Shown: positions 4,360 through 41,652 of the stretch, in pieces
How the letters are laid out: each line of letters opens with the position of its first letter
Position numbering within the stretch: position 1 is the first letter of the stretch
Assembly: GCF_014203045.1 (NCBI RefSeq)
Contig: NZ_JACHIF010000003.1
Coordinates: forward strand, 62,001-126,000
DNA: 64,000 nucleotides
Direction of reading: 5' to 3'
Source of the DNA: Prosthecobacter dejongeii
Lineage (GTDB): Bacteria; Verrucomicrobiota; Verrucomicrobiia; Verrucomicrobiales; Verrucomicrobiaceae
Position numbers and translations under genes: made by a program
The notes under the pieces: model-generated
Told to the model about the DNA's origin: nothing
What the model saw: only the letters and a program-made list of their open reading frames with translations
Databases searched by the model: none

Positions 4360-4854
4360 TTACGGAGCGCCGTTGGAGACCGCGTGCATCTTTTGCAGCT
4401 TCAGGATTTCGATGATCTTGCCCTCATCCTTGCCAAAGAAAGCCGCCGTTAGATCCTGGATTTTCACTCCGGGAGGAGGCGAATCGGTAGGCACAAACTT
4501 CAGCTTGATCTCTTTGGAAGGGGCCACTTCATCCTTGCCACCCTTGATGCTCAGGATGGCCTCCACCGGCTTCACTTCCTCCGGTTTCGCGGGGGCCTGC
4601 TGGGCCTGGGTGGCAGGGGCGGCGGCGGCCTCCGGGGCAGCCGCCGGGCGTGGCAGCCAGCGTTTCACCAGGATCACCATTTCCTTTTCATTCAGCACGT
4701 AAAAGTCCACCAGCTGATTGCCCACCTTCACCTCAGTCACCCGCACAGAGCCATCTTCCTTGAGGAAAGCCGTGCCCTTCAGCAGCATCACCGTCTGGTC
4801 ATAGCATGCAGAATCCATTTCGCAAATGGGTACCCTTTTCCAAAAAAGCGACAT
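4360..4854 (-). CDS. Hypothetical protein with central Ala/Pro-rich linker
   Basis: A 164-residue protein. The N-terminal half ('VMLLKGTAFLKEDGSVRVTEVKVG' region) looks like a small beta-rich domain. The middle is rich in Ala, Pro and Gln (about residues 70-95), and the C-terminal part contains IKLKFVP and ends HAVSNGAP. GGGAGGAG lies just before the ATG at 4854, supporting that start; ATGs further in are alternatives. There is no obvious signal peptide or transmembrane segment. No family is recognised. It is flanked by repeat cluster I and an AT-rich intergenic stretch. Confidence 0.6.
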   Translation of the reverse strand: MSLFWKRVPICEMDSACYDQTVMLLKGTAFLKEDGSVRVTEVKVGNQLVDFYVLNEKEMVILVKRWLPRPAAAPEAAAAPATQAQQAPAKPEEVKPVEAILSIKGGKDEVAPSKEIKLKFVPTDSPPPGVKIQDLTAAFFGKDEGKIIEILKLQKMHAVSNGAP

Positions 4855-5127: not shown

Positions 5128-6228
5128 ATGAATAAGCTTTACATTAAGCCAATTTTAGCCTTTTCAGCGTTTTTCCTGCCGTCATTTGCACCTGTCTTGG
5201 CCACGAATCTCACGGCGACCAACCTGACGCTGACCAACAGCATGGCTTTCGGCCTTGTTCAGGTAAGTGACGGTGCCACTGGCAATAACACAGCACCTGG
5301 CTTTCGATTAACAGTGGAGCAAGATGCGACCAACGAAACATTTACGAATACAATTTACCATCCTGCGTACACCACCATCGAAGAACAGGTGCAACATGAA
5401 TATGGCTATGTGGAAATAGGAGGTCACTACCAGGATGTTTATGGGTATGGCATCGTTAATTCCTACTGGGTACCGGATGTCACGGAAGATTTAGGTTACT
5501 TCGACGAGAATAACCTATGGGTCTCTGTGCCCACCGTGATGACACCCGGCTACTGGCATGAAGAATGGGGAAATGTCGTCGTTGGGCAGGAATATGTCTC
5601 GGGAACTCAGGTTTGGCAGATCATAAATAGCTATACGACTTCTCAAGAGGTTTACCACGATGCCTACACAGAAACCGAAGAGGTCGTCTATCAGTCCTTT
5701 CTGCGTCCTAAAATCAAACAGGCTGCTACCCGCACGGATGCCAATTGGGTATGGCAGGTGCCAGAGGCCAATAATAATGCAACGACCATGCGGGACATCT
5801 TTGTCCTTTTTGATGGGGGTGTTCGCATTCCCTCCCGCACCGAAGGGGAAGCCATGTCGCTTTTGGCAGACAATCTTACCTATTCACGTGCTGTCCCTGG
5901 AACAGATTTTAACGCCACTCAAGCCATCAAAACCCAGGCTGAAAAACTCGTAGTCACTTCTGACCAAGTCTATACAGATACCGCACGGATTAAAGATGAG
6001 TCCAGCCTAGCGGCGCATGAGTTGACGCTTAGTAACTCTTACACCAGTCCCCAAAATCAAACAACCACCAAGCTTACTCAAGTTAGAGCCGATGGTGCGT
6101 ATTTCGGAGGCATGGTCACTGTAAAAGACAATCTTCATGTCGGAGGCGTCATTCGTGTGGCTGAATCAGGAGATCTGTCCATGGGGATCTATAAAAATGG
6201 GACTCAGCCCACCTCCAATCAACCCTAA
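5128..6228 (+). CDS. Secreted aromatic-rich protein, unknown function
   Basis: The 366-residue product has a signal peptide (MNKLYIKPILAFSAFFLPSF, cleavage probably after VLA). The middle (about residues 75-190) is unusually rich in Tyr, Trp, Glu and Val, with repeated patterns such as PGYWHEEWGNVVVGQEY and EVYHDAYTETEEVVYQ. The C-terminal part resembles fibre-like trailers (YFGGMVTVKDNLHVGGVIRV). It is the first of three same-strand genes for exported proteins in an AT-richer block, 43 bp before the next start, so co-transcription is likely. An adhesin or appendage component is possible but unproven. Confidence 0.75.
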   Translation: MNKLYIKPILAFSAFFLPSFAPVLATNLTATNLTLTNSMAFGLVQVSDGATGNNTAPGFRLTVEQDATNETFTNTIYHPAYTTIEEQVQHEYGYVEIGGHYQDVYGYGIVNSYWVPDVTEDLGYFDENNLWVSVPTVMTPGYWHEEWGNVVVGQEYVSGTQVWQIINSYTTSQEVYHDAYTETEEVVYQSFLRPKIKQAATRTDANWVWQVPEANNNATTMRDIFVLFDGGVRIPSRTEGEAMSLLADNLTYSRAVPGTDFNATQAIKTQAEKLVVTSDQVYTDTARIKDESSLAAHELTLSNSYTSPQNQTTTKLTQVRADGAYFGGMVTVKDNLHVGGVIRVAESGDLSMGIYKNGTQPTSNQP

Positions 6229-6271: not shown

Positions 6272-9049
6272 ATGTCGCTTATCCCCTCCTGGCTCCAGGC
6301 GCTCCGCCGAAATCGCGTGCTGCGCGAGCTTACCACAGGTGTTGTTTTAGCCGTTTTATTAATTGGAGCTCATGCGGAATCTTTACCTTGGCCTTATGCC
6401 CCAACACCTACTTGGTGGACGACTCGGGGCGTTCTATCTCCGGGTGTTGTTCCTGACGACTTTGCAGCGATCAATCAAGGGCAGTTGAAGAATATTGTCT
6501 CAGCCTCCATTGCAGAGATGAATGCAAAGTTAACGGGGGGGGCTGGCCCAGCACTTAATGCCATGGTCAATTCTTGGGCAACCCCATCTTCTCACACCGA
6601 TGACTTTGCTGTTGTGAATCAAGGTCAAGTTAAGGCTGTGGCGCTTCCCATCTATCAAAGGCTCGTGGAAGTGGGTGTTTTCACAGCTCTTCCTGCGTGG
6701 ACAAATTCTTCTTCTAGTGGAACTGATGATTACGCCTTAGCAAACATCGGTCAGGTCAAAAACTTATTCGCCTTCAACCTTCCTGAAGCGCCTACTTTAA
6801 CATTAAAATCTTGGTTCAATCAGCAGTTAGTTTTAGCAAATCAGTTGTCTCCGTTTGGGCTATTAGTGACTGTGACAAATGGAGATGTAACGGTCCCAAA
6901 TGAAAACGTCACTTTCGAGGTTTTTCAAAGTCAGGGAGGCCTTTTGGAGACCACTAATTTGACGGCTAACCCACTGGCGAGCTTAAGCGTTGTCAGTGAT
7001 TCGTCAGGTTTTGCCAAATGCCAGTTTCGTGCGCCTTCTCAACCAAGTTATTGCTGGATTCGTGCCAGTCTTAGCAACGAGCAATCTCAATGGTTCTTAA
7101 TGACGGTTGCAGGAGTCACTGGGCCTTTCCCGAACAATCCTCCTGGCACCACTGGAGTGGACTTTTTACGTGACTCAGACGCCGATGGGATTTCGGACGC
7201 CGAAGAAAACGTCAATGGAAGTGACCCAAAAGACGCCACACAATCCCCGCATCCAGAAAACTTCGTTAAATTCAAGAGTTGGACGGCTTATAAATCTGAT
7301 ATAATTAATGTCTTACGCGTCGTAAAATCTGAGGGGCCTGATGAATGGAATTGCTCACGAAAGACACACAACAATACGACGGTGGTACGAGACGAAAAGT
7401 CAGTCGAAGCCACGCGTCCGAATTTGGATTTAGATCCCTACACACAGCCTGCCTCGGCAGATTGGAAGCTTGATCCTGGCTTTCAACGCTCTTTTCCATC
7501 TAGCCATGTTTTTTCCAACAATCACAATAGTGAGACCAATGATGCCACTAGTAAAATTTTAATTTACTCTTCTCATAAGCTGCAGATTATTTCAGATACT
7601 TTATTGACAAAAGACTACAGCTTACGTTTCGCGGTTTATCGTCAAAGGAGGGAGGGGAGTGTGGTCAAGCCAGAAGTGTATGTTGAGACTGTCCAATTAA
7701 CTTTACCTGCCAATTCACTGGAGGGACAAACAGTCAGTCTGTCCTATGAACCTAAACTCAACTGTAATGACACTTATGTTTTTAAGCCCGTCGAGCCGAT
7801 AAGTGTTGATCGCGTGAGTTTTGAAAGCTCGTTATCTAATGCACAACATCATTTGCGTTCCGACGATGGTAACACTATCTATAAAGCCCCTCATTGGTGG
7901 GATAAAAACCACGATGGGCTGGCGGAGACGGATGAAACGACGGGTGAAAGAAATTACCCCCTTGCATTTAAGCGCGGGAGCCCACTTTCTGTGAAGGTGA
8001 AATTTCACACGAGAGGCATTCTCAATTATAGTTATTATCAGGTGAAGGCGGTCGTCACAGGAGGGCTGACTTTGCCTGAAGTAGAGACCGGCGCTTCCTT
8101 TGATACGGATGGTTGGCTAACTTTGCAGAGCACTCCCTTTGAGCAAAAACTTAACAATACCATTCAGTTCTACAATGGACAGGGAAATAGTGCCTTCACG
8201 ATCCAGTGGCAAGTGAGGGAAGGAGATAGTGGCTCATGGCTAGACGCTGGAACGACCAAACACACCTTTTATATTACTGGTGGCGATCGTCCATCAGGCG
8301 ATGATTATAATTACCTGCCAGAGACATTTCTTAATGTAGCTTGTCGTAATGCACATGGTCTTGGCGACAACCCACAGCAGGTGGTGGATGCTGTCTTTTC
8401 TGAATTTATGGATAGAAAAGTTTGTCGGGTGATTCCGTCAACGGGGAATCCTCAAGCGGATCCGATGGTTTATGCCCACGATGAGGACACTCTTGGATTT
8501 GACTCCATAGTTAATTTTATAGCTTTAGGAAAGGGGCGCTGCGGGCACTGGGCAAATTTATTTTCTGATTGTCTTCGCCTGCACGGCATTAATGAGTCTG
8601 AACAAGTTGTTATAGAGCCGGAAGATCCTAATACCGTTAATAGCATTCCATTTTCGAAGACTAACTGGAGGTTTAAAGATGCTTACGAAAGTAAAGAAGG
8701 CTTCAGTTTATCTCTTTCATATCCCTTTTCTGAAGCTCTATTGTTTATAAACAATTGGGATATTTCTGATGTTTGGAATCCAATACCAAAAACAGCAGTG
8801 CCTGCACAAGGAACTGACAATCCAAGTATGTATTTTGCTGATCATGTTGTTAATAAATTTAATGGTAAAATTTATGATTCTTCTTATGGAGTTAAATTTG
8901 ATAATTTGGTCGATTGGGAGGACTCTGCATTGGCTGCTAGAGGTGCGTGGGCTATTCCTTCTGGCATTAACCGACCGGATTTGTTTTGGATCGAGATAGC
9001 AAATCAACCAAATTCACGTGAAACTTATTCTCGTGAAAATTCAGATTGA
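6272..9049 (+). CDS. Exported protein with GQxK modules, TSP3-like calcium loop and transglutaminase-like core
   Basis: The 925-residue product has a long signal or anchor sequence (hydrophobic at residues 22-36). Three short modules follow: DDFAAINQGQLKN (61-73), DDFAVVNQGQVKA (110-122) and DDYALANIGQVKN (152-164). An Asp-rich loop, DSDADGISDAEEN, resembles a thrombospondin type 3 calcium repeat. The C-terminal region has GRCGHWANLFSDCLRLHG with Cys757, His858 in ADHVVNKFNGKIYDSSYG and Asp869, the arrangement of the transglutaminase/papain-like triad. A protein cross-linking or peptidase role outside the cell is inferred. Codon use is AT-richer than in most of the window. Confidence 0.8.
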   Translation: MSLIPSWLQALRRNRVLRELTTGVVLAVLLIGAHAESLPWPYAPTPTWWTTRGVLSPGVVPDDFAAINQGQLKNIVSASIAEMNAKLTGGAGPALNAMVNSWATPSSHTDDFAVVNQGQVKAVALPIYQRLVEVGVFTALPAWTNSSSSGTDDYALANIGQVKNLFAFNLPEAPTLTLKSWFNQQLVLANQLSPFGLLVTVTNGDVTVPNENVTFEVFQSQGGLLETTNLTANPLASLSVVSDSSGFAKCQFRAPSQPSYCWIRASLSNEQSQWFLMTVAGVTGPFPNNPPGTTGVDFLRDSDADGISDAEENVNGSDPKDATQSPHPENFVKFKSWTAYKSDIINVLRVVKSEGPDEWNCSRKTHNNTTVVRDEKSVEATRPNLDLDPYTQPASADWKLDPGFQRSFPSSHVFSNNHNSETNDATSKILIYSSHKLQIISDTLLTKDYSLRFAVYRQRREGSVVKPEVYVETVQLTLPANSLEGQTVSLSYEPKLNCNDTYVFKPVEPISVDRVSFESSLSNAQHHLRSDDGNTIYKAPHWWDKNHDGLAETDETTGERNYPLAFKRGSPLSVKVKFHTRGILNYSYYQVKAVVTGGLTLPEVETGASFDTDGWLTLQSTPFEQKLNNTIQFYNGQGNSAFTIQWQVREGDSGSWLDAGTTKHTFYITGGDRPSGDDYNYLPETFLNVACRNAHGLGDNPQQVVDAVFSEFMDRKVCRVIPSTGNPQADPMVYAHDEDTLGFDSIVNFIALGKGRCGHWANLFSDCLRLHGINESEQVVIEPEDPNTVNSIPFSKTNWRFKDAYESKEGFSLSLSYPFSEALLFINNWDISDVWNPIPKTAVPAQGTDNPSMYFADHVVNKFNGKIYDSSYGVKFDNLVDWEDSALAARGAWAIPSGINRPDLFWIEIANQPNSRETYSRENSD

Positions 9050-33889: not shown

Positions 33890-34310
33890 GGGGGATTGAG
33901 GGTGGAGGACTCGTTTAAGAGAAAAGGGCACCCTTTTGCGAACGAGGTTCTGCGTGCTGCGACCACCCCTCACCTTAGCCTCTCCCCACGCGAGCGCGGG
34001 GAGAGGGAACGCGCTTTTGGCAGCTCCTAATGATAGACCGAACGAGGAGTGGATTTAAAAGCGAACGACGGCGGTTTGGTCTTCCGTGGACGGAGTCGAA
34101 AAGACATCCCCCTCGCCCCAGGAACTGGGGAGAGGGCCAGGGGTGAGGGGCGGTGGAAGGTGAGGTCAGGGTGGAGGTGTCGTTTGAGAGAAAAGGGCAC
34201 CCTTCTGCGAACAACATCCCGCGTGCTACGCCCCCCCCTCACCTGGGCCTTTCGCTTCGCGGCTTCGCAACCCCGCAAGCGGGGAAAGGGAACGCGTTTT
34301 TGGGGAACTC
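33890..34310. repeat. Repeat family B, two tandem copies (about 269-bp period)
   Basis: The block GAGAAAAGGGCACCCTT occurs at about 33920 and again at about 34189, 269 bp apart, each followed by a degenerate GCGAAC...GTGCT-x-CG tail. Between them lies GATTTAAAAGCGAACGACGG (from 34052) plus GGTTTGGTCTTCCGTG. Embedded hairpins include CTCCCC/GGGGAG, CCCCAG-GAA-CTGGGG and CCCCGC-AA-GCGGGG. The same modules reappear at 59.2-59.5 kb. No gene is credible inside. It separates the convergent TRASH-protein and oppF genes. Confidence 0.88.
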
Positions 34311-34396
34311 TGGATGGATGAGCGAGCGAAGACTGATTGAGAACGAAGGATCACCGATCACCCTTCAGCGAATGGAGTCTAGACAGCGCCTCTTGC

Positions 34397-35371
34397 TCAC
34401 TCTCCGGTGCAGCAGGGGCAGGGCTGCACCCAGTGGCCGGGGGTGATTTCTTTCAAGCTCAGGTCCATGCCCACGCTGTCTTTCCACCGGGGGTGGCCCA
34501 TGCGGTGGCCGAAGGCGCAGCCAGCAGGGGGATTGATGGGGGAGGGCACGTCCCCTTGCAGCAGGGAGCGCGGGCGGCGCAGGGCGGGATCCGGCACAGG
34601 GATGGCATCCAGCAGGGCGCGGGTGTAGGCGTGCAGAGGCCGGCGGTAAAGCGTCTCCGCCGGGGCCAGTTCGACGATCTTGCCCAGGTACATCACGGCG
34701 ACGCGGTCGCTCATGTGCTTCACCACGCTGAGCCCGTGGGCGATGAAGAGGTAGCTCAGGCCCATCTGCCGCTGGAGGTCTAACAAAAGGTTCAGCACCT
34801 GACTCTGCACCGAGACATCGAGCGCAGAGACGGGCTCGTCACAGACGATGAGTTTGGGCTTCAGGGCGATGGCGCGGGCGATGCCGATGCGCTGGCGCTG
34901 GCCGCCGGAAAACTCGAAGGGGAAACGATCGCTGGCGGTGGTGGGCAGGCCGACTTTGTCCAGCAGATCCGCCACCCAGGCGCGGCGTTCTTCTTTGCTG
35001 CCCAGTTTTTGGACGATGAAGGGCTCCTCCAAAATATCGCGCACCGTGTGGCGCGGGTTCAGGGATTCCGCGGGATCTTGGAAGATCATCTGCATGTGCC
35101 GGCGGGTGGGGCGGAGCTGGCCCATGCTGGCGGTGGTGATGTCTTGCCCTTCAAAGTGGACGCTGCCGCCCGTGGGTTTCAGCAGGCGCACGATGCTTTT
35201 GCCGAGCGTGGTTTTGCCACAGCCAGATTCACCGACGAGGCCCAGGGTCTCCCCCGCGGCCAGGGAAAAGCTGACGCCATCCACGGCTTTGCAAGAGGCC
35301 ACAGAGCGCCGCAGCAGACCGCCACGGACGGGGAAATGCTGCTGGAGGTTTTGAACGGTGAGGAGGCTCAT
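34397..35371 (-). CDS. oppF: Oligopeptide ABC transporter ATP-binding protein (OppF/DppF type)
   Basis: The 324-residue ATPase has Walker [14 protein letters not shown], signature [16 protein letters not shown] and Walker [15 protein letters not shown]-terminal oligopeptide-transporter extension includes [13 protein letters not shown] with the conserved Cys of the Opp/Dpp Fe-S or C-terminal motif. It would pair with the OppD-type subunit encoded at 35831. It is the promoter-distal gene of the transporter unit, separated from oppD by the hicBA pair rather than adjacent to it. Confidence 0.95.
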
Positions 35372-35374
35372 GAA

Positions 35375-35581
35375 TTAAAGATCGCTTTCTTTGAGATCGG
35401 CAGTTTTCATTAGGGCACGCAGGAGGCCGATCTTTAAAGTTTCGTTGCCATGAACAGGGATCACCAAAGGGCCGGTTTTGTCCGCATGCTTGAAGATGTG
35501 ATGGCTGCCATTGACACGAGCCAGGGACCAGCCGTGAGCCTGGACGATTTTGACAAGCTGTTTACCGCTGATGAGTTTCAC
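35375..35581 (-). CDS. hicA: HicA-family toxin (mRNA interferase)
   Basis: The 68-residue product shows the HicA/YcfA dsRBD-like pattern: ISGKQLVKIVQAHGWSLARV, the active-site segment NGSHHIFKH with His, then PLVIPVHGNETLKIGLLRAL. HicA toxins cleave mRNA, and cognate HicB neutralises them. The start overlaps the end of the HicB-like gene by four bases (35578-35581), so the order is antitoxin then toxin. It ends three bases before the oppF start, so it is embedded in the transporter transcription unit. Confidence 0.9.
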   Translation of the reverse strand: MKLISGKQLVKIVQAHGWSLARVNGSHHIFKHADKTGPLVIPVHGNETLKIGLLRALMKTADLKESDL

Positions 35582-35781
35582 ACGTTCACCAGCATGGGTT
35601 GAGCGTCAGCATCGTCTATTTCCTGCTCAGCATCTGCCAGAAACCATCCTTGGATGGCCTCGGCGAGCCGCAACCGAAGTTGATCCAGCGTCTCCGCCTG
35701 AGTGAAGCAACCCGGCAACGAGGGCACTTCAGCCCAATAGCCGCCTTCTTCAGCAGGATGAACAATGGCTTTAACGGTCAT
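35578..35781 (-). CDS. hicB: HicB-family antitoxin
   Basis: The 67-residue product has the partial RNase H-fold pattern of HicB: AIVHPAEEGGYWAEVPSLPG, CFTQAETLDQLRLRLAEAIQ, then an acidic tail (AEQEIDDADAQ). It lacks an added C-terminal DNA-binding domain, so autoregulation by this short form is less certain. It overlaps hicA by 4 bp and lies 49 bp after the oppD stop. Confidence 0.9.
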   Translation of the reverse strand: MTVKAIVHPAEEGGYWAEVPSLPGCFTQAETLDQLRLRLAEAIQGWFLADAEQEIDDADAQPMLVNV

Positions 35782-35830
35782 GAGAATAAAATAAGCGATT
35801 GAGGTCCGATTTCAAGGGGCATGCTCCAGC

Positions 35831-36817
35831 TCACGCGACGCAGATGGGGCAGTTTTCTACCCAATGGTTAGGCGAGATTTCAACGAAGGCGGGCCGCACG
35901 CTCAGGTGCGTGTCCGTGTGGGGGCGGCCAGAGCGGGTGGCGAAGCGGCAGCCGGGGCGGAAGTCGGCAATGCCAGGCACGTTTCCTGGGATGGCTTTCA
36001 GCAGGGTCTTGGGCGTGCTGTCCAGGCGCGGGATGCTTTCCAGCAGACCCTGGGTATAGGCATGGCGCGGGCGGGCAAAGAGCTCGTGCACGCTGGCGCG
36101 CTCGACGATGCGGCCCGCATACATGACGGCGACTTCATCACACACCTCCGCGATGACGCCGAGGTCATGGGTGATGAGGATGACGCTCATGCCCATTTCC
36201 TGCTGGAGATCGGCGATGAGTTTGAGGATCTGCGCCTGCACGGTGACATCCAGCGCCGTGGTCGGCTCGTCAGCGATGAGGAGCTTCGGTTTATTGATGA
36301 GCGCCATGGCGATCATGATGCGCTGGCGCATGCCGCCGCTGAGCTGGTGCGGGTATTCGCCCAGGCGGGTCTCGGGCGCGGGGATGCGGACTTTTTTCAT
36401 CATGTCCACACTGCGGCTCAGCACCTCAGCCTTGCTGCATTGCGTGTGCAAAAGGATGGCCTCAGCAAGCTGGCGACCGACCGTTTGCACGGGGTTCAGG
36501 GCGGTCATGGGCTCCTGAAAAATCATGCTGATCTCGTTGCCCCGGATGGCCTGCATTTGCTCCAGCGGCAGACTCACCAGGTCCTGCCCCTCAAAGCGGA
36601 TGCTGCCGCTGAGGATCTGGCCGTGGGGCTGGGGCAGCAGGCGGGTGATGGAAAAGGCGGTGACGCTTTTGCCACAGCCAGATTCGCCGACGATGCCCAG
36701 CGTCTTGCCACGCGGCACGTCAAAGGAGATGCCGTCCACGGCGGTCATGCGCCCGGCATCGGTGTCAAAGGCCGTAACGAGGTTTTCGACCTGGAGGATG
36801 GAGTCGTCGTTGCTCAT
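35831..36817 (-). CDS. oppD: Oligopeptide ABC transporter ATP-binding protein (OppD/DppD type)
   Basis: The 328-residue ATPase has Walker [15 protein letters not shown]-loop [12 protein letters not shown], signature [15 protein letters not shown], Walker [13 protein letters not shown] and the switch His in LITHDLG. The C-terminal Opp/Dpp extension contains [11 protein letters not shown]. It overlaps the solute-binding-protein gene by 4 bp (ATGA), so it is translationally coupled to it. Confidence 0.95.
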
Positions 36818-38799
36818 CGGGGTTTTACAAAGGAGTCATGCACCTGCAGGGATTCACCGTAGTCACGCCCTTCTTTCCGGGCCTCCTGCGTTTCGCGTTT
36901 GAGGTCTTCATCAATCCAGAACATGCGGGCATCCAGCGGCATCTGGCTGTGAAAGGCGTTCCCCGTTTTCGGCCAGCGCAGCCAGCGCCAGCTAAAGTAG
37001 CGGTAGTTGGAGGATTCCCACAGCGGGATGGTATTCGCCCGGTCATGGATGAGCTGGGAGAGCTGCCAGGAAAGCTGCTGCACTTCCTCCTCTGTGGCGG
37101 CTTTGCGGTGGCGGTCTATGATGGAGTCCAGCGCTGGGTCCGCCGTCATGGTCATGTTGTTCGTATCCACCACCACCGTGCGTTTGCCATCGGGCCCGGT
37201 CTTGTAGGCATTGTCACTGTGGTAATCATCCCAGAAACGCGGGTAAGGCGGCTGCGCACCAAAACCGGCGAGGCCTAACTCATGATTCTTCTGGTTCAGT
37301 TTTTTGTAGAGCTGGGTGGTATCCAGTCCCTCCACGATGATCTCCAGCCCGGCCTTTTTAGCCTCCTCCTTCAGCCGCAGCATAATGGGGGTGATGGTGC
37401 CGGAATTGAAGGTGGTGAGGGTGAAGGAAAGGCGCTTGCCGCTGGCATTCATGAGGATGCCATCCGGCCCAGGTTGGGTATAACCAGCTTTAGCGAAATG
37501 CTCGCGCGCCTTCACCACATCAAAAGGCCGGGCTTTGACGGCAGGATTGGTGAATTTGCCAAAACCGGCCTCGGTGGTGTTCATGCGGGTCTTGTCACCA
37601 CGGAAGTCCACATCCAGCACCTTTTGCAGGTTCATGGCGTAGTTGATGCCGATGCGCAGGTCCAGATTGTCCAGCGGCGGTTTGCTTTCATTGATGCGGA
37701 TGCCCCAGCTCACTTGAGGGAACTCGTTGTAGAAGATGTGGCGCTCGATGTAGCCTTTGTAGATCTCGGGGATCTCCGCCTTGTCATACCAGTAGCGCGG
37801 CAGGCCAGCGATGAAGAAGTCGAGCTGGCCCTGGCGGAAAAGTTCAAAGGCCTTGTCCTGACTGGCGATGATGCGGTAGTCCATGGCGTCCACATTGTAG
37901 ATGTAGCGGAAGTGTTTTTTATCCCGCGCCCACCAGTTTTTCACGCGGTGAATGGTGATGCGGCGGCCGCGTTTCACATCTGCTTTGGGATCGAAATCAT
38001 AGGCCCCAGTGGTGGGGGATTTCCGCCACTGGTAGCGGGCAGGGAAGTCCTGACCGAACTCCTTGTAAAACTTCCGCGACATGGGCTGCACGTCCGTCAC
38101 CTTCCACATGGGATCCGGGTAGTTTTCCTTGAGCGTGTAGGAAAGGGTGTGGTCATCGTACTTGGTGATGCTCTTGAATTCTTTGCTGTAATAGTCGTTA
38201 TACCAGGGGTCCTGGATGTGCGGACTCAGCATGATGTAGAAGGTCATGAAGAAGTCCTCCACCGTGACGGGCGTGCCATCGGAGAAGGTGAGTTTGGGAT
38301 CGAGCCGAAAGTAAACCGTCTTCTTGTCAGCAGAGTAAGCCCACGCATCCGCCATGCCAGGGATCCAGGCATCTTGGTCGGGATGGCGGGGGGCCATCCA
38401 GATCATCACCTGGTCATGATGCTCACCACGGAAAGTGCCGCTGGCATCCGGGCCCACGACGCGGTAGGTGGCGGGAAAGGTGGGGTGGTAGTCGTGAAAG
38501 GTGCCGCCTTTTTTCGCCGCAGGATCGCCAAATTCAGGCACATCCGCGCCCGTTTCCCACTTCAGATCCGTGGGCAGATCCGCCGGGGTTTTCCACTGAA
38601 ACAGCTCCGGTTTGGACTTCCAAAAAGCCTCCACCTCCGCCGTGTTGTCATAGGGGGGAAAGCGGTCGTCGGTGGACTCGGAACAGGCGCTGAAAAACAG
38701 GCCCAGGCAGGCAGCCAAAAGCCCACAGGCCAGGGCACGCGCCCATGGTGGACAGGCGTGCGAGGGCAGCGGTTGAGGAACAGGCAAAAGGGGACTCAT
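36814..38799 (-). CDS. Peptide ABC transporter substrate-binding lipoprotein (SBP family 5)
   Basis: The 661-residue product has an unusually long N-terminus before a lipoprotein signal ([18 protein letters not shown], lipidated Cys near residue 39). The large size and features such as [40 protein letters not shown] and [20 protein letters not shown] fit the YejA-like large branch of family 5 binding proteins. It overlaps the permease gene upstream by one base (TGATG) and oppD downstream by four. It would deliver peptides to the transporter from the periplasmic face. Confidence 0.92.
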
Positions 38800-40316
38800 C
38801 AGCGATAGGTCGTGAATTTTTTCGGGTCGAAGGCCTCACGGATGGCTTCACCCACGAAGGTGACCAAAATGAGCACGGTGGTCATGGCCACAAACGCGCT
38901 GGCCACGATCCACGGATAGTTAAAATCCTCCGTGCCTTCCCGCAGCAGGCGGCCCCAGCTAGGCTCCTCCGGCGGCAGGCCAAAGCCGAGGAAGTCCAGC
39001 GCGGCTAGGGAGCTGATGATGGCTGCCACCTCAAAGGGAGCCAGCGTGACCAAGATGGCGATGCTGTTTGGCAAAATGTGGCGGAAGATCACACGGCTGG
39101 TGCTGGCCCCTAGCAGGCGGGCGGAGGCCACGTAGTCACGGGCCTTTTCTTTATAGGCAGCGGTGCGGATGTACATCGTCGTGCCCATCCAGCTAAAGGC
39201 CGAGATGATGAGCACCAGCATGAACAGGGTGGGGCTGATGATGGAACTGATGATGAGGATGATGAACAAAAAGGGCAGCACGGACCAGATCTCGATCAGG
39301 CGAGAACCGATGATGTCATACAGCCCACCGAAGTAACCCAGGGTGCCGCCGACAATGACGCCCACCACAAAGACAATGGTGACGAACAAAACGGAGGCGA
39401 TGATGGCCTGCTGCCAACCGCCAAAGAGGATGGCCAGCACATCCCCACCGGAGGAAGTGGTGCCGAGAAAATGCTGATGCGTGGTGGAGGGCGGCGAAGG
39501 CGGATAAATGGCCGCGTATAGCGTGGGCGCGGTCTGCGCATCCAGCGCGGGGATCTTGCCATTCGTGTAGTCTGTGTAGGCCTGGCGCTGGCCTTTCTCA
39601 TAGGTGGCCTTTTCCACCTGCTCCCCGGCCAGGTCCCAGCCGCGCAGCTCGCCGTGGCGCTGGCCCTGGCGGAAGACGATCTCCTGGCGCTTCTGCTCCG
39701 GCTTGTCTTTAAAGACGGTGTAGGCACGGCCATTGAAGGGCTGGCTGGAGCCCGTTTCATAGATGAGGCCGCCGCGCTCCTCCATGATGGCGATGGTCTC
39801 GGACGTGTCCAATTTCGCATCGTAGGGCACCGGTGGCATCAGCACCCAGTTGGCAGATTTTTCCTCGCGAAATTTCAGCTTCAGCTCGCGGTAGTCCGTC
39901 TCACTTTCTTCACTGCCGCCAAAGGTGGTGGCGGGCAGCACCTTTGTCACAAAGGGAAAGTAAAGCTTCCCCTCATAACTGACGATGAGGGCGCGCTTGC
40001 CCACCAGCAACCCATCCAGCGAGCCTAGCAGTACCAGCACCAGGAGGAGGAGGAAGGAGACGTAGCCCCGGCGGATGGCCTTGAATCGGCGCAACTGTTT
40101 CAGCGTGAGCGGGCTGAACTGCCACTGGCGCGGCCCGCGCAGCAGCCACACCCCGGCCAGCAGGCACAGGCCCAGCAGGACCCAGCCCACCGCGGCAGTG
40201 GAGAGGAAGGGGATTTTAAAAACAGGCACACTCAGACCCGCGAGGCGAAAGCCCCCGCTCAGGAGTGTGTACAATGCCAGCAGGGTGCCAAGGATGCGCG
40301 GTGACATGTTATTCAA
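38799..40316 (-). CDS. Peptide ABC transporter permease (OppC/YejE type) with enlarged N-terminal region
   Basis: The 505-residue product is longer than the usual 300-350. The N-terminus has several hydrophobic helices (ILGTLLALYTLLSGGFRLAG, VGWVLLGLCLLAGVWLL, VSFLLLLVLVLLGSLDGLLV) and a soluble region (about 120-285) with an EKATYEKGQRQAYTDY-type segment. The C-terminal permease core contains LGTTSSGGDVLAILFGG and ARLLGASTSRVIFRHILPNS, the EAA-like coupling motif. It overlaps the OppB-type gene by 8 bp. Large YejE-type permeases have a comparable extra periplasmic section. Confidence 0.92.
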   Translation of the reverse strand: MNNMSPRILGTLLALYTLLSGGFRLAGLSVPVFKIPFLSTAAVGWVLLGLCLLAGVWLLRGPRQWQFSPLTLKQLRRFKAIRRGYVSFLLLLVLVLLGSLDGLLVGKRALIVSYEGKLYFPFVTKVLPATTFGGSEESETDYRELKLKFREEKSANWVLMPPVPYDAKLDTSETIAIMEERGGLIYETGSSQPFNGRAYTVFKDKPEQKRQEIVFRQGQRHGELRGWDLAGEQVEKATYEKGQRQAYTDYTNGKIPALDAQTAPTLYAAIYPPSPPSTTHQHFLGTTSSGGDVLAILFGGWQQAIIASVLFVTIVFVVGVIVGGTLGYFGGLYDIIGSRLIEIWSVLPFLFIILIISSIISPTLFMLVLIISAFSWMGTTMYIRTAAYKEKARDYVASARLLGASTSRVIFRHILPNSIAILVTLAPFEVAAIISSLAALDFLGFGLPPEEPSWGRLLREGTEDFNYPWIVASAFVAMTTVLILVTFVGEAIREAFDPKKFTTYR

Positions 40317-41589
40317 AACGGATGCGCGGATCTGTAAGCGCGACGAGGAAATCTGACAGGATGTTGCCGACCATGAGGACCATGACTTGCACGACGAGGA
40401 TGCCCATGACTAGGGGGTAATCACGATCCAAAATGCTGTTGTAACTCAGGAGTCCAAAGCCGTTGATTTCGAAGATCATTTCAATGAGCACCGAGCCCGC
40501 GACAAAGATGGAAACGATATGCCCCAGCGTGGTCGCTACTGGGATCAGGGAATTGCGCAGCGCATGCACCAGCACGGCCCTTTTAAAGCCAGCCCCCTTG
40601 GCCACCGCCGTGCGCACATAGTCAGCGGCCAGATTGTCCATGAGGTTGTTTTTCATCAGCATGGTGAGGAAGGCAAAAGACCCCACCATGTAGCAGACCA
40701 GAGGCAGAAAGGCATGATGCAGCACATCCCACACCTGCGCGCCGAAGGTCAGTTCCTCAAAGTTATCTCCCACAAACCCGCCCGTGGGAAACCACCCCGC
40801 ACGAGCGGCGAGGAACACCACCAAGACACTGGCTAAGACAAAGCCAGGAATCGAATAACCCACAAAAATGAGGACCGAGGTCGTATTGTCCAGCACCGTG
40901 CGGTGTTTGATGGCCTTTAAGATGCCCAGCGGGATGCAGACAAGGTAAGTGAGCAGGGAGGTGGCCAGCCCGTAAAAGATGGAGATGGGCATGCGCTCCA
41001 GCACCATGTCCCACACATACAGATTGTAGCGGGTGGAGATGCCCAGATTTCCCTGGAAGAGGCCGCTGTACTCCGTGCGGTAGATCTGCACACGCTGCTT
41101 CTCCTTTTCCACCTTCGTGTGCCAGGGTTTCAGGTCCTCGGCATCCGCTCCGCTCAGTACCCCATCTGGGGTGAGGGTGGCCTGGGTGATACGGTAGGCA
41201 TTGTTGGGCTGCCATTCCGCCCGTGGCAGCAGCCTGCGCAGCGTCACCGGAGCCTCGGTTTTGCCCGCTTCAAATTTCACAAACTGCTTGTCCATCTGCG
41301 CCGGGATGAACCCCAGCCAGGCGAGGTAGGCGGGAAAAAAAGGGCGATCAAAACCGTAGTAGGCCGCCACCGCATCTTTCTGCTCCTCCGTCAGGGAGGC
41401 CCCGGCATTTTTCATGCCCCGGTCCCCCTGCATGGAGGCTTTTTGCATGGCCGCCTCCAGCGGTCCACCGGGGGTGATGCGGGTGATGAAAAACACCACC
41501 ATCGTCGCCCCGATGAGCGTCGGGAAGATGAGCAGAAAACGGCGGAGGAAATAGTCGCGCATGAGAAAGACAAACAGACTGTCAGACAT
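40309..41589 (-). CDS. Peptide ABC transporter permease (OppB/YejB type)
   Basis: The start is taken at ATG 41589 (MSDSLFVFLMRDYFLRRFLL); a GTG two codons earlier is possible. The product of about 426 residues has the N-terminal helix LLIFPTLIGATMVVFFITR, a periplasmic region (about 55-190), the ISTRYNLYVWDMVLERMPIS entry typical of OppB, and the coupling motif VAKGAGFKRAVLVHALRNS. It is the first gene of the minus-strand unit oppB-oppC-SBP-oppD-hicB-hicA-oppF, divergent from a second binding-protein gene. Confidence 0.93.
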   Translation of the reverse strand: MSDSLFVFLMRDYFLRRFLLIFPTLIGATMVVFFITRITPGGPLEAAMQKASMQGDRGMKNAGASLTEEQKDAVAAYYGFDRPFFPAYLAWLGFIPAQMDKQFVKFEAGKTEAPVTLRRLLPRAEWQPNNAYRITQATLTPDGVLSGADAEDLKPWHTKVEKEKQRVQIYRTEYSGLFQGNLGISTRYNLYVWDMVLERMPISIFYGLATSLLTYLVCIPLGILKAIKHRTVLDNTTSVLIFVGYSIPGFVLASVLVVFLAARAGWFPTGGFVGDNFEELTFGAQVWDVLHHAFLPLVCYMVGSFAFLTMLMKNNLMDNLAADYVRTAVAKGAGFKRAVLVHALRNSLIPVATTLGHIVSIFVAGSVLIEMIFEINGFGLLSYNSILDRDYPLVMGILVVQVMVLMVGNILSDFLVALTDPRIRFE

Positions 41590-41652
41590 ACGCACGTGGG
41601 AGACAAGGAATTGTGTGGTTTTTCATCCCACCAGGGTCAAGATGCCGCCGTC

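Follow-up and report, generated by a model that had tools for sequence, protein, structure and literature searches.

HicAB/HicBA modules are type II toxin-antitoxin (TA) systems, and, in the available text of a review (PMC11594946), HicB antitoxins without a DNA-binding domain are described as common, the hicBA gene order is reported to occur as well, and His24 is the residue named for BpsHicA. Location of an addictive module within a housekeeping operon also has precedents. As far as the accessible text of PMC2701414 goes, an MNT-HEPN module lies within the lysine biosynthesis operon of Thermus thermophilus HB8 and is missing from strain HB27, and the part of PMC10273834 at hand reports PabI-type restriction-modification genes inserted in the his and glutamate operons of Helicobacter and Campylobacter. 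Searches of the open-licence PMC literature yielded no account of TA genes located between oppD and oppF, nor of a slot of this kind in Verrucomicrobiaceae.

The window, that is, the whole stretch of 64,000 nucleotides of Prosthecobacter dejongeii DNA that was analysed, carries an Opp-type peptide ABC transporter made up of two permeases, a substrate-binding protein (SBP) and two oligo_HPY ATPases encoded on one strand (Table 1). Its subfamily was left unassigned by NCBIfam, as no listed model reached its cut-off for the operon proteins; the nearest models were microcin C YejB and Opp4B for the OppB-like protein and the microcin C permease PRK15021 for the OppC-like protein, all of them below cut-off. 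The two ATPase genes, otherwise in direct contact, are separated here by a hicBA pair. In the minus-strand order oppD, hicB, hicA, oppF, the first two genes are 49 bp apart, hicB and hicA overlap by 4 bp, and 3 bp separate hicA from oppF. All seven genes (oppB, oppC, SBP, oppD, hicB, hicA and oppF) share the minus strand, so that the strand order is unbroken by hicBA. These distances and the common strand agree exactly with those given in the initial annotation, and its claim that a transporter operon is interrupted is borne out by the nearest relative found (G033), in which oppD and oppF overlap by 4 bp. Thus, the pair interrupts an otherwise contiguous opp operon.

Table 1. Positions in the window of the opp operon genes, the hicBA pair and the sequences next to them.
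Feature	Position	Strand	Assignment and remarks
oppB-like permease gene	40309..41595	-	BPD_transp_1 (Pfam); first of five transporter genes
oppC-like permease gene	38799..40316	-	BPD_transp_1 (Pfam)
Substrate-binding protein (SBP) gene	36814..38799	-	SBP_bac_5 (Pfam)
oppD, ABC ATPase	35831..36817	-	ABC_tran + oligo_HPY (Pfam)
Promoter-like site TTGAAA-16-TATTTT	35788..35815	-	consensus scan; second hexamer ends 6 nt before hicB ATG
hicB antitoxin gene	35578..35781	-	67 aa, ATG start; toxin-binding domain only
hicA toxin gene	35375..35581	-	68 aa, GTG start; overlaps hicB end by 4 bp
hicA-oppF gap	35372..35374	-	3 bp
oppF, ABC ATPase	34397..35371	-	ABC_tran + oligo_HPY (Pfam)

Both small proteins were recognised by Pfam. 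HicA matched HicA_toxin (PF07927) with 70 bits (cut-off 27) over profile positions 1-58 of 58, and HicB matched HicB_lk_antitox (PF15919) with 31.6 bits (cut-off 27) over positions 3-56 of 123, as well as UPF0150 with 35.6 bits (cut-off 27.3); neither protein matched NCBIfam. These are the single PF07927 match and the single PF15919 match in the genome (6.0 Mb, 96% complete). The catalytic His of HicA is present: the first His of its GSHH motif (His27) corresponds in the alignment to a position occupied by Ala in the structure chains 4c26 and 6g26, which we take to be His24 mutants. The two genes form the adjacent, co-directional, overlapping pair expected of such a module. The fold predicted for HicB consists of three strands and one long helix (mean pLDDT 75, below 50 for residues 56-67), and the best PDB matches of the model were HicB antitoxins, with a best E of 1.3e-3 and none at E <=0.001. 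A DNA-binding domain for autorepression is absent from HicB, as judged by its 67 aa, the match to the N-terminal part of PF15919 only and the model; since this domain is commonly missing, it was not counted as defining for HicBA. Comparison with the copies of another junction (G041) gave dN of 0.064-0.074 and dS of 0.58-0.65, indicating that hicB and hicA are under constraint. The pair is an ordinary member of its family. A plasmid or viral origin of the HicA of the window was considered and rejected, as the three plasmid records matched (E up to 1e-8) are all below 49% identity and the only locus found among viral contigs shows 43%.

A consensus scan of positions 34200-37000 (2.8 kb) revealed one sigma-70-like site, against 0.4 expected, located in the oppD-hicB gap. 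The same scan found no promoter directly before oppF, nor was a terminator found there, terminator-like sites inside oppF being near chance (4 found, 2.7 expected); a separate promoter or terminator before oppF was rejected on these grounds. The layout of the hicB site, with TTGAA starting at -34/-35 and TANNNT ending 6 nt before the ATG, a definition made only after inspection of the leaders, precedes 2 of the 16,982 ATGs present in 464 kb of this genome, one of them being that of hicB. It fits four of the five carriers of hicBA of the window type (type 1) that have a leader, the window included, while G055 is without the last T. Hexamers at -15 to -12 before 291 crude gene starts (24 versus about 9 expected) were also considered as a general leaderless signal in the genome, a candidate that was dismissed because the enrichment is weak and was picked after seeing the profile. 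The promoter argument does not carry over to inserts with the order hicAB, because the toxin gene comes first there.

Transcription starting at the putative promoter would give hicB almost no leader and, if the promoter works, would also read into oppF, 3 bp past hicA. The proposal of the initial annotation that oppF expression is tied to the TA promoter is hence plausible, given that the sole sigma-70-like site lies in the oppD-hicB gap, and a promoter shared by hicBA and oppF may be envisaged. According to this arrangement, a small promoter of its own would drive hicB, giving a transcript with hardly any leader or none, in addition to read-through from the opp operon; translation of hicA would be coupled to that of hicB, and oppF would be translated by re-initiation just past hicA. 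Because it lacks a DNA-binding domain, HicB would be unable to autorepress in the usual way, and the module would ride on the transcription of the host operon. HicA is predicted to be an mRNA-cleaving toxin held by HicB.

To place the pair in a wider frame, 80 junction regions were fetched, 65 of which, together with the window, gave both oppD and oppF (66 resolved junctions), the other 15 being cut by a contig end or without match. Fifty-five of the resolved junctions constitute the family set and the remaining 11 lie outside the family. The relatives are mostly draft metagenome genomes; the named ones, found through their SBP, include Prosthecobacter, Brevifollis, Verrucomicrobium and other Verrucomicrobiaceae records, with a few differently labelled. 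The uninterrupted operon sought in related genomes, as the initial annotation had recommended, was found at 34 of the 55 family junctions, 33 with an identical 4-bp ATGA overlap, in which the oppD stop overlaps the oppF ATG, and one (G059) with a 17-bp gap. The nearest relative found is among them: its SBP is 96% identical, dS is 0.15 for oppD and 0.26 for oppF, both genes are intact and overlap in ATGA, and no HicA match was obtained. With these 34 family genomes empty at the junction and another 15 filled differently, the data contradict the idea that loss of the TA pair would be difficult without damage to the transporter.

The other 21 family junctions are occupied by inserts of about 270-740 bp belonging to distinct types; one or two members of each were searched with Pfam, further HicA proteins were found by search and the other labels were read from translations. 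Six carry hicBA of the window type (G000, which is the window, G041, G031, G055, G062 and G026), including a decayed copy (G026) whose hicA has an in-frame stop, whose leader is lost and whose hicB follows oppD by only 2 bp. Five carry hicAB (G047, G013, G005, G015 and G025); in G025, no stop separates the hicA frame from the frame upstream of it (open frame of 368 aa) and the OppD frame enters the insert. One junction (G040) is composite, with a short type-1 hicB followed by hicA-hicB. A small ORF together with a Kinase-PolyVal gene occupies seven junctions, and the small ORF by itself two. Outside the 55, an apparent further hicBA case was seen in G054, where hicA-oppF lies at a contig start (split contig), and an apparent further small-ORF case in G045, at a contig end. 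No TA-like gene was seen at the 11 resolved junctions outside the family, of which G098 and G088 were not read for ORFs and have the oppD stop not placed, and G108 has a 576-bp gap coded as empty without Pfam search. Thus, one oppD/oppF junction is used repeatedly by distinct TA-like modules.

The third insert type contains the Kinase-PolyVal domain (PF18762), identified with Pfam for G053 and by search for G017, and is found between oppD and oppF at loci L084, L085, L094, L103, L112, L123 and L134. In all seven, the OppD frame continues without stop into the Kinase-PolyVal gene, and a conserved small ORF of about 57 codons overlaps the Kinase-PolyVal frame in another frame. That the two form a toxin-antitoxin pair is a guess; possibly, the kinase and the ~57-aa ORF represent an undescribed TA-like pair with a dual-coding overlap. 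Thirty Kinase-PolyVal loci were fetched, one of which (L228) was left out; among the 29 examined, 14 without the kinase motif by pattern, the small-ORF partner was present at one, the oppD/oppF copy of G017. Counts from the kinase search are low, as it missed junction copies visible by translation, e.g., in G016, G023 and G024.

The remaining junctions of the operon are less often interrupted than oppD/oppF. Among the named loci plus the window, inserts longer than 200 bp were found at 0/34 oppB/oppC, 4/38 oppC/SBP, 0/37 SBP/oppD and 13/32 oppD/oppF junctions (Fisher p 0.005 for oppD/oppF versus oppC/SBP); the genomes in this control are largely the same as the 55, L179 was left out and the named loci do not include G051. 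Of the four oppC/SBP inserts, three are ~700 bp long and the fourth (L182, 206 bp) belongs to a distant locus; two of the ~700-bp inserts were searched and contain UPF0175 and a gene below the DUF3368 cut-off (scores 25.2 and 25.0 versus 27.3). UPF0175 + DUF3368/PIN-like pairs were located between oppC and SBP at L146 (~5270-5990), L171 (~5259-5989) and L148 (~1759-2489, judged by similarity). Between the SBP gene and oppD, L134 (G051) holds a 125-aa gene of the 23S_rRNA_IVP family, and L152 (~7880-7986) and L148 (~4430-4534) hold ~100 bp of GC-rich sequence with inverted repeats seen by eye, perhaps an interspersed palindromic element.

A search for HicA in 40 family genomes placed 7 of 78 matches at oppD/oppF (summed from the search table after comparison of match positions). 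As the junction was chosen because the window is occupied, the case of the window has to be set aside, which leaves 6 of 77, far above expectation for one junction among thousands (308 crude ORFs of at least 150 aa per 464 kb). The same search returned HicA matches shortly downstream of oppF, on the operon strand, in G031 (C18:33798-33971), G047 (C37:111541-111714) and G030 (C60:53983-54057, a weak fragment). At two other loci (L043 in G032 and L048 in G047), hicBA lies directly 5' of another gene, presumably a dihydroxyacid dehydratase gene from the way its start reads; together with related HicA copies in G025 and G026, these loci may mark a second recurrent TA place.

When insert state was mapped on an OppD/OppF tree, 19 changes were required, against a mean of 20.3 for shuffled labels (as low in 31 of 200), so the state of the junction is close to random with respect to kinship. 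Coding junctions as occupied or empty gave 15 changes, at least 8 of them forced by well-supported branches of this tree, which was built by a quick method, combines two OppD lineages and includes a sequence (G015) filling only 36% of columns. The hicBA copies of the window and G041 share a homologous leader and show pS of 0.40-0.43 versus 0.52 in the flanks; being about as diverged as the flanks, they may predate the split of the window genome from G033. The most economical reading of these sequences for this small clade would be that the common ancestor had the module and that G033 and G042 lost it cleanly, although transfer is also possible. A 10-bp direct repeat that includes the oppD/oppF overlap flanks the insert of G041; no other insert showed a clear direct repeat at both ends. 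Duplication of the overlap would explain both that the two genes stay intact and that the module exits cleanly, which we offer as a suggestion only.

Taken together, these results favour, with a probability of roughly 70%, a complete and selectively maintained type II HicBA module at the oppD/oppF overlap, a site of recurrent insertion in a family of Verrucomicrobiaceae type. There it would persist as a hitchhiker of the addiction type, not as a component of peptide uptake, and could be cleanly lost. The recent one-off insertion with the transporter held hostage, which had been the initial idea, agrees with the uninterrupted junction and missing HicA match of the nearest relative, but is improbable and largely refuted, because a module of this kind, with its leader homologous to that of the window, occupies the same place in G041 and because empty junctions are common. 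Even less credence is due to an adaptive regulator of peptide import in which HicB and HicA adjust oppF expression: oppF lies next to hicA and an internal promoter-like site is available, but HicB is without a DNA-binding domain, most relatives have nothing at this junction and the other occupants are of other kinds, so that we regard it as very improbable.

A more serious competitor is the presence of hicBA at oppD/oppF in the family ancestor, followed by vertical inheritance with many losses and replacements instead of lineage-specific insertion. The leader and the synonymous divergence common to the window and G041 speak for it, as does the composite junction of G040, which looks as if hicAB had replaced the hicA of an older hicBA, and a single origin of the type-1 HicA borne at the site was not rejected (AU p 0.118). 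Nevertheless, the site copies do not form a group in the best HicA tree, type-1 hicBA has to change 5 or 6 times on the OppD/OppF tree, according to the coding of G040, the same point is occupied by distinct modules, and the junctions resolved outside the family, with the scope given above, held no TA-like gene; hence we consider it rather unlikely. The alternative raised against its own reading by the initial annotation, that hicBA is ancestral at this place, thus holds in part, in that the G041 copy is about as diverged as its flanks, and fails in part, since occupancy is patchy across the family and distinct modules share the place. It is also conceivable, at clearly less than even odds, that no targeting exists and that TA modules land at random, the oppD/oppF overlap being very tolerant since the OppD C-terminus and the OppF start bear insertions. 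No integrase or transposase, terminal repeats or general target duplication was seen at the inserts (ORFs read; one or two members per type searched), other junctions are also filled (oppC/SBP, and SBP/oppD in G051), and the OppD frame extends into the insert in all kinase-type cases and in G025, in accordance with mere tolerance. However, the bias within the operon and the several module types demand one unusually tolerant junction.

A stronger version of recurrent insertion treats the 4-bp overlap as a dedicated docking slot, where distinct TA-like modules (hicBA, hicAB, small ORF + Kinase-PolyVal) would be captured by a precise mechanism that duplicates the overlap, leaving the flanking genes intact, with modules competing for the place and being released cleanly. 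We put this forward tentatively, as doubtful on present evidence; if true, related species would carry alternative alleles of one TA locus. The recurrent, losable insertion favoured above bears on how TA modules without a transposase spread and on whether they burden or protect neighbouring genes. Because one short junction exists in empty, filled and refilled form across dozens of related genomes, events of gain, loss and replacement can be counted there, and matched pairs, such as the empty junction of G033 and the filled one of the window, are usable for effects on the operon. The turnover at the junction speaks against protection of a TA pair from loss by its location in a useful operon.

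Compared with other HicAB/HicBA type II systems, the pair of the window has the same HicA_toxin and HicB-like domains and the same overlapping gene arrangement, as far as the review text cited above (PMC11594946) describes them, but its position is within a transporter operon, where the same junction also serves other small modules. Likewise, the junction copies of Kinase-PolyVal proteins, which have the same domain as other members, differ in the overlapping conserved small ORF and in the frame running on from OppD. The MNT-HEPN module of Thermus is, in the available account (PMC2701414), also a TA-type module in a housekeeping operon that is missing from a close relative; it concerns one module in one strain pair, whereas several module types across a family are found at oppD/oppF. 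The PabI-type systems, for which the accessible portion of PMC10273834 states that different modules compete for the niche, are addictive modules in operons as well, but they are restriction systems and not TA, in other operons and another phylum. Because addictive-module insertions in operons are already known, the oppD/oppF junction constitutes a variant rather than a new kind; what is unusual is that one stop-start overlap is used again and again by distinct TA-like modules across a bacterial family.
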